A DNA stretch of 64,000 nt from Pseudoxanthomonas kaohsiungensis (GTDB lineage: Bacteria; Pseudomonadota; Gammaproteobacteria; Xanthomonadales; Xanthomonadaceae), in NCBI RefSeq assembly GCF_010211765.1, contig NZ_PDWO01000002.1, positions 163,581 to 227,580 on the forward strand. The letters run 5' to 3'. The position numbers were made by a program, and so were the translations under genes. Position 1 is the first letter of the stretch. The number at the start of each line of letters is the position of its first letter. A model generated the notes under the pieces. The model saw only the letters and a program-made list of their open reading frames with translations. It was not told where the DNA came from and did not search any database. Below, piece by piece: positions 36,906 through 59,281 of this stretch.

Positions 36906-37013
36906 GCGGCGAACCGGGAGAGCGGCGCTTCCGATCGCTTTCGGGGCCTGGCCAAGAGTCTTCTGTTGCGTCGATTCCGAACGGGCCAGCGTCAGGATCC
37001 AAGGCATCTCGTC

Positions 37014-37417
37014 GCGCTGGCTCCGGAGGGGGCCGCCGTCCTGCCGCCATGGGGGCCGTCGCTCGCGCCGGCGTCCCTGCCTCAGCTCGCGACCGCGGCA
37101 CAGCCCTGTGCCGCTCGACCCCCATGGCGGCAGGACGGCGTCCTTCCGGCGCGTCGAGGGCGTGGCTTCGATCGGTGCCCGGGGCTCGCAGCGATAGAGC
37201 ACTCCGCAGAAATCATGGAACGGCGACAGCGACGCGCTGCTCTCGCAGTCACCCCATCGATCGAAGCCACCACCCCGAAGATCCCCGAGGACGCCGTGTC
37301 CTGGGGAGAGGGCCCAAGTGGCACATGGATGTGCCACGACCCGAGTAAAGACAGGATGTCGTCCCGAGGGATGGGCCCTCTCCCCAGGGCACGGCGGCCC
37401 CTTCCGAAGCCGACGCT
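37014..37417 (+). repeat. Copy 1 of a 404-bp element with terminal inverted repeats and three stem-loops
   Basis: Same length as copy 2 at 58762-59165 and 19 differences by eye (about 95% identity), no indels. Module A: 22-bp perfect arms 37034-37055/37119-37140 around an inner 9-bp hairpin (37095-37114). Module B: 13-bp arms 37162-37174/37258-37270. Module C: 24-bp arms 37292-37315/37373-37396, one G-U pair, around an inner 9-bp hairpin (37318-37337). Modules are 107, 109 and 105 bp, spaced by 21 and 21 bp. The right end and the inverted left end match at 22 of 27 positions. No transposase is encoded. It may be a MITE-like non-autonomous element or specify a structured RNA. Confidence 0.85.
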
Positions 37418-37498
37418 TTCCTTCGGTGTCTGCGAAGCCGAAGCGGTCACGGCCCATCCGAAGCCGACGCTCCCACCGCCTTCTCCGAAGCCAACGCT
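37403..37498 (+). repeat. ~27-bp tandem array of the element end motif
   Basis: GAAGCC cores begin at 37406, 37434, 37460 and 37487 (steps 28, 26, 27). The full motif TCCGAAGCCGACGCT is at 37403 and 37457, with a one-base variant at 37484 and a weaker copy at 37431. The first unit is the right end of the 404-bp element. Confidence 0.75.
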
Positions 37499-37533
37499 TC
37501 GGGCAGAGCCGCGGGCCGCTACCCCGCAGGCGC

Positions 37534-37566
37534 GCAAAGAAAAAGCCCGGGAGCGATCCCGGGCTT
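37534..37566 (-). terminator. Terminator after mlaA
   Basis: 10-bp stem AAGCCCGGGA / TCCCGGGCTT with a 4-nt loop, followed on the minus strand by TTTTTCTTT. A classical Rho-independent terminator closing the mla operon. Confidence 0.85.
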
Positions 37567-58720: not shown

Positions 58721-58761
58721 GCGAGTCTCGCTACGTCGGTTGGCTTTGCTTGAATCAGGGC

Positions 58762-59165
58762 GCGTCGGCTTCGGACGGGGCCGCCGTCCTGCCGCCACGG
58801 GGGTCGTCGCTCGCGCCGGCGTCCCTGCCTCAGCTCGCGACCGCGGCACATCCCTGTGCCGCTCGACCCCCATGGCGACAGGACGGCGTCCTTCCGGCGC
58901 GTCGAGGGCGTGGCTTCGATCGTTGCCCGGGGCTCGCAGCGATAGGGCACTCCGCAGAAGTCATGGAACGGCGACAGCGAGGCGCTGCTCCCGCAGTCAC
59001 TCCATCGATCGAAGCCACGACCCCGAAGATCCTTGAGGACGCCGTGTCCTGGGGAGAGGGCCCAAATGGCACATGGATGTGCCACGACCCGAGTAAAGAC
59101 AGGATGTCGTCCCGAGGGATGGGCCCTCTCCCCGGGGCACGGCGGCCCCTTCCGAAGCCGACGCT
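58762..59165 (+). repeat. Copy 2 of the 404-bp tripartite palindromic element
   Basis: Equal in length to copy 1. Left end CGCGTCGGCTTCGG... and the inverted right end AGCGTCGGCTTCGG... agree at 25 of 27 positions. Module A arms match at 20 of 22; module B 13 of 13; module C 24-bp arms are kept with two G-U-type pairs (a change in the right arm turned a T-A into a T-G). The inner hairpin of A stays intact with substitution only in its loop. Located between the GH43 and DUF885 genes. Confidence 0.85.
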
Positions 59166-59212
59166 CCAACCCGCCAGCTCCGAAGCCGACACGTCGGCAG
59201 CCAGCTCCGAAC
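59151..59212 (+). repeat. Short tandem array of the element end motif, copy 2 side
   Basis: CCGAA(G) cores begin at about 59154, 59182 and 59209 (steps 28 and 27), parallel to the array beyond copy 1 but shorter and more degenerate. Confidence 0.55.
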
Positions 59213-59244
59213 AAAGATTCCTTCGCCAGCCGCACCCCAAGCCG

Positions 59245-59281
59245 CCGCAAAGAGAAAGGGCAGGCCAATGGCCTGCCCTTT
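59245..59281 (-). terminator. Terminator after the DUF885 gene
   Basis: 12-bp stem AAAGGGCAGGCC / GGCCTGCCCTTT with an AAT loop (59255-59281). On the minus strand it continues TTTCTCTTT. Confidence 0.8.

Follow-up and report, generated by a model that had tools for sequence, protein, structure and literature searches.

Paired GGA-hairpin repeats dispersed through Pseudoxanthomonas genomes, candidate binding sites for CsrA

The window analysed here, the whole of a 64,000-nucleotide stretch of the Pseudoxanthomonas kaohsiungensis genome, contains two copies of a 404-bp element (37014–37417 and 58762–59165), and the question raised by this locus is whether it represents non-autonomous mobile DNA or an RNA with a defined structure, the two options offered by the original prediction. 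The basic description stands: the copies differ at exactly 19 positions and align without indels, 22 of 26 positions match in the terminal inverted repeats, and the long inverted arms are present (28 nt 93%, 28 nt 93% and 43 nt 77% complementary). Nor does the element look like coding DNA: a codon-based gene finder rates the longest frames through it as non-coding. Folding of the + strand yields −268.6 kcal/mol (z −11.9) and folding of the − strand has a z of −10.9; on each strand, 0 of 100 dinucleotide shuffles were as good.

When the element is compared with the source genome (G000; 3.76 Mb in 85 contigs) by blastn, 74 matches are found, eight of them near full length. Most of the others cover one ~160-bp end, in both orientations, so the whole element consists of two inverted copies of one unit. 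A covariance model of this unit (R1; 150 candidates scored, E-values rough) identifies at least 82 sense units at 66 bits or more in at least 49 intergenic places in G000, and a further 24 weaker matches represent those palindromes read in the opposite direction. The family therefore extends far beyond two copies and includes structure-preserving changes, which removes the fear that the regular pattern might be a coincidence within a segmental duplication.

Within the 404 bp, an RNA-like unit of ~125 nt occurs twice, as an inverted doublet. Copy 1 is a divergent pair, of type 1-A, enclosed by common terminal inverted repeats. Its unit A (37025–37148, − strand; G000:C22:200605-200728; R1 100 bits) forms a three-way junction with hairpin 1 at 37095–37114 (loop CAGGGCTG) and hairpin 2 at 37070–37081 (loop CAGGGACG), both on the − strand. 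Unit C (37284–37405, + strand; G000:C22:200864-200985; R1 125.6 bits) forms another, with hairpin 1 at 37318–37337 (loop CATGGATG, of the AYGGAY or CsrA type) and hairpin 2 at 37350–37360 (loop CAGGATG, as in CsrB repeats; PMC7652899), both on the + strand. Copy 2 is organized in the same way, with unit A at 58773–58896 on the − strand (hairpin 1 at 58843–58862, loop CAGGGATG) and unit C at 59032–59153 on the + strand (hairpin 1 at 59066–59085). Of the three modules originally perceived, the outer two are thus inverted, outward-facing copies of one unit, and the middle one (37149–37283) dissolves into a spacer, that is, variable sequence between the 5' flanks (GATCGAAGCC...) that are conserved in the two units. 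The symmetric spacing of the modules results from the inverted pairing of two units. The copy 1 spacer is 95% alike in copy 2 and cannot be aligned with that of most other doublets. The 3' tail of the unit, CCGAAGCCGACGCT or CGGCGGCCCC...GACGCTTC, recurs in short tandem copies after some units (37399–37498 in the window; L208, L200, L222 elsewhere); these look as if they were 5'-truncated copies or remnants of tandem units.

The consensus fold of the unit is a three-way junction composed of a ~29-bp outer stem, an ~8-bp hairpin 1 and a hairpin 2 on its own stem. The alignment behind this fold (A1) comprises 54 units from G000 loci picked by plain blastn, reduced from 57 finder units by omission of near duplicates (both L032 units, that is, window copy 2, and the L034 + unit); the finder match L053 +, which is not of the GGA type, was excluded. 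The finder requires GG-containing loops and an outer helix and scores G-U above A-C, so that the covariation, the conserved loops and the strand bias seen in A1 partly reflect this choice of rows. All 40 blastn-picked loci gave at least one unit, with stem scores mostly well over the threshold, and the A of GGA was not demanded. In A1, 91.5% of the cells pair, compared with 73.5% after shuffling, two-sided changes occur at 40 of the 47 pairs, and the outer stems differ widely between copies and still pair. The covariation score is 0.485 in A1 (0.147 shuffled, 0 of 500 as high) and 0.553, compared with 0.156, in the model-fitted alignment A2 (59 matches, drawn from G000 and ten congeneric genomes). 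Helix 3 contains tandem G-A/A-G pairs (GA at columns 64/89 in 29 of 54 units, AG at 65/88 in 30 of 54), which alternate with U-A/C-G.

The pairing is also biased to one strand. Among the core pairs (the outer-stem core and the two hairpins) read on the GGA strand, G-U is found in 79 and A-C in three of 1722 cells (p 4e-20), so one folding strand is favored, the strand with the GGA loops, which in the window corresponds to − in the left-hand and + in the right-hand unit. Over all 47 pairs, the ratio is 88:69, which speaks against a CsrA-binding RNA repeat; the A-C cells lie mostly at columns 6/123, 60/94 and 35/96, which were judged unpaired and excluded from the core after the table was seen. 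The two substitutions that seemed to favor opposite strands can be partly reconciled. The T-A to T-G change at 37386 does keep the + strand pairing of unit C, as had been proposed. The difference at 37318, where copy 1 has G and copy 2 has A, leaves a real mismatch on the + strand at the foot of hairpin 1 and speaks against strict pairing in copy 2. The puzzle is eased because unit A reads on the − strand and unit C on the + strand.

The loops are where the unit most resembles a known binding site. The loop residues G-G-A are 98–100% conserved in A1, where the outer-stem columns have a mean majority-base frequency of 0.69. Among the R1 matches in G000, 80 of the 82 units have CA(N)GGANG in both hairpin stretches, the loop CAGGGCTG of the window being one of only two departures; this test searched stretches of each unit, not alignment-fixed loops. 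The SELEX consensus of CsrA is RUACARGGAUGU, with ACA and GGA invariant, and the motif of CsrB is CAGGA(U/A/C)G in hairpin loops (PMC7652899). By that published yardstick (CANGGANG or CAGGAYG in hairpin loops), both hairpins of 80 of the 82 units carry a CsrA-type motif. The ~8 bp of hairpin 1, compared with mostly 4 bp or fewer in SELEX ligands of CsrA (PMC7652899), count against this assignment. A transcript of the unit would most likely offer two sites to one CsrA/RsmA dimer. The protein side is represented in G000 by a canonical csrA, and L4 and R44 are key residues of CsrA. Two divergent extra CsrA-like genes lie ~35 kb apart on contig C77 of the same genome (L244:2028-2186 and L245:2010-2162), and the CsrA search gave one match in each of the other 12 genomes of the genus that it covered.

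Several GGA hairpin loops are likewise found in the sponge RNAs CsrB/CsrC and RsmX/Y/Z, with CAGGAYG as the CsrB type (PMC7652899). The arrangement differs: CsrB and CsrC concentrate many sites in the products of one or a few dedicated genes, whereas the units described here have two sites each, are dispersed by the dozen and lack a recognizable promoter. RsmX, RsmY and RsmZ resemble CsrB and CsrC in this respect. Exact matches to the hairpin GTGGCACANGGATGTGCCAC also appear in 18 Sedimenticola rows and eight rows of a Pseudomonadales metagenome-assembled genome (r_calh23_24) among the 80 matches listed. By eye, these loci (L279–L358, e.g. L286:2794-2909 and L280:3250-3400) are differently built multi-hairpin repeats with further GGA loops. 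R1 matches 14 of 40 non-Pseudoxanthomonas loci weakly, and the Sedimenticola and Pseudomonadales repeats perhaps represent separate families of GGA-hairpin repeats.

Among the described RNA families, the closest likeness is to TwoAYGGAY (RF01731), which was listed as a motif, a predicted RNA, in 2010 (PMC2864571) and has been proposed to bind CsrA, with tandem GAs stated (PMC4333381). The units share with it the three-way junction, two adjacent AYGGAY-like hairpins, the tandem G-A in one stem and the occurrence in Gammaproteobacteria (PMC4333381). They differ in the longer, variable, GC-rich outer stem, the conserved 3' tail and the many divergent doublets, and the passages on TwoAYGGAY in PMC4333381 and PMC2864571 do not describe a paired, high-copy repeat. 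At the Rfam gathering threshold, no family matched the window, and RF01731 in particular (43 bits) had no match in the 64 kb. At a relaxed threshold, two G000 units reach 37.2 and 30.7 bits against the cut-off of 43. Three results weigh on the other side of the proposed kinship with a CsrA binder: in the same relaxed search, the unrelated family BjrC68 hit flanking DNA with a better E-value; RF01731 was not found in G000 in the search of relatives, in which 51 of 225 candidates were scored; and ten further loci of G000 gave no match at E 0.05. The cut-off is passed by same-genus units that R1 also finds (45.7 bits in G013, 46.1 in G006). Because the score falls short in G000, the units are treated as a relative of TwoAYGGAY and are not filed as members. 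Elsewhere in the order, three genomes pass (G030, G040 and G027), with −+ pairs at L089, L090 and L102, and in the class, at least 11 of 229 genomes do; three of these match at 11 of 11 scored candidates, so TwoAYGGAY itself can be multi-copy. In G030 and G040, the RNase P RNA gene is the immediate neighbor of a TwoAYGGAY match (L090, L102). The family is a paired, dispersed, high-copy relative of TwoAYGGAY, and that form seems to be new; in the open-licence literature (titles and beginnings of abstracts, among the matches listed), no account of this repeat or of a repeat family of CsrA sites was recognized.

The pairing of units follows a single pattern almost throughout. The 49 places in G000 hold 30 −+ doublets, one −−−+ group, 14 single − units and four single + units, so that the inverted doublet, as in REPINs, is the main form and each of the 30 two-unit places is −+. 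For the 18 single units, a partner search with the filter off revealed one convincing partner, a + unit at 53.8 bits beside L229. In other Pseudoxanthomonas, 23 of 23 two-unit groups at 47 loci are −+, a count in which 70 of 73 rows were entered and three opposite-strand rows omitted. The exceptions, which tell against the proposed reading as a repeat of CsrA sites, are a '--' tandem in G006 (L105), a weak '++' in G034 (L097), a '+-' pair in G197 and a finder-only '--' in L343. The doublets of G000 are of types 1-3 (15), 1-A (10) and 2-2 (5), with no 1-1 and with two partners assigned by eye. The spacers measure 90–493 nt (median 177.5) and match over 50 bases or more in only five of 435 locus pairs; the units are thus conserved where the spacers are not. 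Within the genus, at least 16 of 17 genomes have R1 matches (weak in one), as do at least five of six others of the family and at least two of 14 others of the order, with up to 96 candidates scored per genome.

Taken together, the best explanation, which we consider somewhat better supported than doubtful, is that the element belongs to a dispersed, REPIN-like repeat family built from a CsrA/RsmA-binding RNA unit of the TwoAYGGAY type. Two blocks would stand back to back, − then +, around a variable spacer, and with this geometry, a transcript crossing the doublet from either side contains exactly one block in the GGA sense. Each transcribed block would offer two loops, and a CsrA/RsmA dimer could hold both hairpins. 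Individual copies might then act as dispersed local binding sites that tether CsrA to read-through RNA, and the blocks, at least 82 of them, could together form a decoy pool that titrates CsrA. Binding, transcription and the decoy role are what we infer from the make-up of the sequences. The two blocks have probably spread together, as a non-autonomous REPIN-like unit that inserted into gene-free DNA and only seldom between divergent genes, and the REPIN-like spreader and its cargo of CsrA sites may both be real. Both halves of the original alternative thus gain support, the mobile one from the dispersed copies and the empty sites in relatives, the RNA one from the strand-biased structural conservation and the many two-sided changes; what falls is the notion that the 404 bp form a single molecule carrying three stem-loops. 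At that stage, the GGA loops had not been noticed, nor had the resemblance to TwoAYGGAY or a possible connection with CsrA.

If the repeats bind CsrA/RsmA, TwoAYGGAY would acquire a function, Pseudoxanthomonas a candidate Csr antagonist, and there would be an example of a repeat family that harbors binding sites of a global RNA-binding regulator. The idea lends itself to direct testing, since natural copies are numerous, paired and resolved by strand. A broader proposal, which we put forward only tentatively, is that a mobile, REPIN-like doublet, arranged so that transcripts from either side display one CsrA docking site, has distributed more than 150 CsrA loops over the gene-free DNA of Pseudoxanthomonas, that such dispersed repeats set the level of free CsrA and that TwoAYGGAY as a whole is a family of this kind. 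Should this be the case, the level of free CsrA would be determined by the repeat population, not by a few dedicated sponge RNAs.

The evidence for spread comes from orthologous sites. At the junction of the GPx and MlaA genes, DNA of approximate extent 36922–37535 is absent from G001, G002 and G014, where the GPx stop codon lies ~20–35 bases before a terminator-like hairpin that is followed by MlaA; in the window, this hairpin, with its A/T tract (37540–37566), adjoins the inserted DNA. At this site, G000 is ~610 bp longer than these three genomes, and G010 holds a different 1.2 kb. Around copy 2, ~515 bp (approximately 58723–59238) are absent from G004, and the terminator-like hairpin beside this copy (59255–59281) has a counterpart at the G004 empty site, so that the extra DNA adjoins such a hairpin at both window copies; match coordinates alone, with the junctions not read, leave 86 bases at the copy 2 site in G013 and 78 in G001. 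By flank coordinates, the sites L217/L313, L230/L305 and L236/L366 are empty in one species and occupied in others. Gain in G000, as opposed to loss in the relatives, is the simpler reading of these empty sites, which is not proof.

The main rival explanation regards mobility as the whole story: a REPIN/MITE-like inverted doublet of mobile DNA replicates, its hairpins are recognized as single-stranded DNA by a transposase supplied in trans, and the GGA loops would be contacts of that enzyme, their likeness to CsrA sites being coincidental. This would explain the presence or absence of the element at orthologous places, a strand bias would also be expected of one single DNA strand, and the dispersed doublets, singlets and fixed heterodimer types are comparable to those of REPs and REPINs (PMC3116915, PMC3733652). 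Indeed, REPINs and REP doublets resemble the family in being intergenic inverted doublets that coexist with singlets and heterodimers and enclose a variable spacer. REP palindromes, however, are 20–40 bp long with GTAG or CGTC tags (PMC3733652), whereas the unit described here is a ~125-nt branched structure. GTAG occurs within 12 nt of the unit end in 0 of the 82 units, and the combination of this tag with linkage to a RAYT gene, which characterizes REPINs, was not seen. The other tag, as CGTC or GACG, lies no more than 12 nt from the 5' end in 28 and 67 of the 82 units, respectively, which would fit the rival, but it sits inside the ~29-bp paired stem; in CGTC-type REPs, an unpaired CGTC stands at one end of an 8–9 bp stem (PMC3733652). 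A link between the units and Y1 transposases was considered and dropped: three Y1 genes are present in G000, none near the listed units (the nearest, on C33, is ~31 kb away).

In line with the original prediction, no transposase of its own was found in the element, and the spacers, at most 493 nt, are too short for a typical transposase gene. Neither the autonomous partner expected of a MITE, sought among the Y1 genes only, nor a target-site duplication was found, and active mobility was not detected. The outer ends of the two window elements share no 4-mer, and the two edges of the longer insertion around copy 1 have one 5-mer (GGCGC) in common. Single units are on average no more decayed than paired ones (mean 105.8 versus 107.6 bits), which counts against this rival, and the published CsrA motif in both loops is left to chance. 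On balance, we consider this main rival possible but unlikely. No blastn match to the element was found in plasmids or phages, and viral contigs contain no exact match to one 20-base hairpin pattern. A second repeat, approximately GTAGGAGCCGATTCATCGGCGAC on the other strand, which is REP-like and GTAG-tagged, lies just 5' of the unit at L203, L206, L210, L211, L218, L219, L220 and L232. Degenerate short arrays, e.g. (GGTTGC)n and (GCCTCT)n, lie just beyond the 3' ends of units (L217, L235, L237, L218, L220 and others) and are inverted on the two sides of some loci.

The position of the units relative to genes bears on a further alternative. In all 49 clusters, the overlap with a predicted gene never exceeds 60 nt. 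The neighboring genes are convergent in 23 cases, codirectional in 23 and divergent in three, compared with 3, 14 and 9 among window gaps of more than 100 bp (convergent excess p 0.0022, divergent deficit p 0.0025; the gene finder is a codon log-odds model trained on the window, and the background of 26 gaps includes two that hold elements). The abundance of convergent gaps, together with the very stable stems and the terminator-like hairpins that adjoin both window copies, would suit a bidirectional 3'-end element of convergent genes, such as a transcription boundary or an mRNA-stabilizing stem. A terminator or stabilizer, however, needs no GGA loops, let alone two, the terminator hairpins that adjoin the window copies occur at the empty sites as well, and a T-rich tract (5 of 8) follows within 30 nt in only 11 of the 82 units, all of which makes this explanation improbable.

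For the preferred reading, in which the units are CsrA sites carried on read-through RNA, the transcription signals are in part unfavorable. No sigma-70-like promoter was found around either window copy, and in seven single units (six '+|-|+' and one '-|+|-'), the only gene reading into the unit reads the wrong strand. A single weak terminator-like site was found in each window copy; it lies within unit C, on the opposite strand, and is close to what chance would give.

The evolution of the stems is best followed at orthologous places. In 33 comparisons, which are non-independent, rest on a model-fitted alignment and include one locus under two identifiers (L177, L348), there are 327 two-sided, 58 one-sided and 129 unpaired changes, and two-sided changes outnumber one-sided ones in 31 of the 33. 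This excess, along with whole arms that look rewritten, would also result if long palindromes without any RNA-level function were homogenized by template switching or gene conversion between arms or copies, the least probable of the explanations considered, given that arm correction should be strand-blind, in contrast to the core ratio of 79:3 (88:69 over all 47 pairs), and leaves both the near-invariant GGA loops of two different hairpins and the tandem G-A pairs unexplained. Some places hold another subfamily in another species (e.g. L235, L295), and the overall picture points to stems that have been shaped by whole-unit replacement between copies as well as by compensation.
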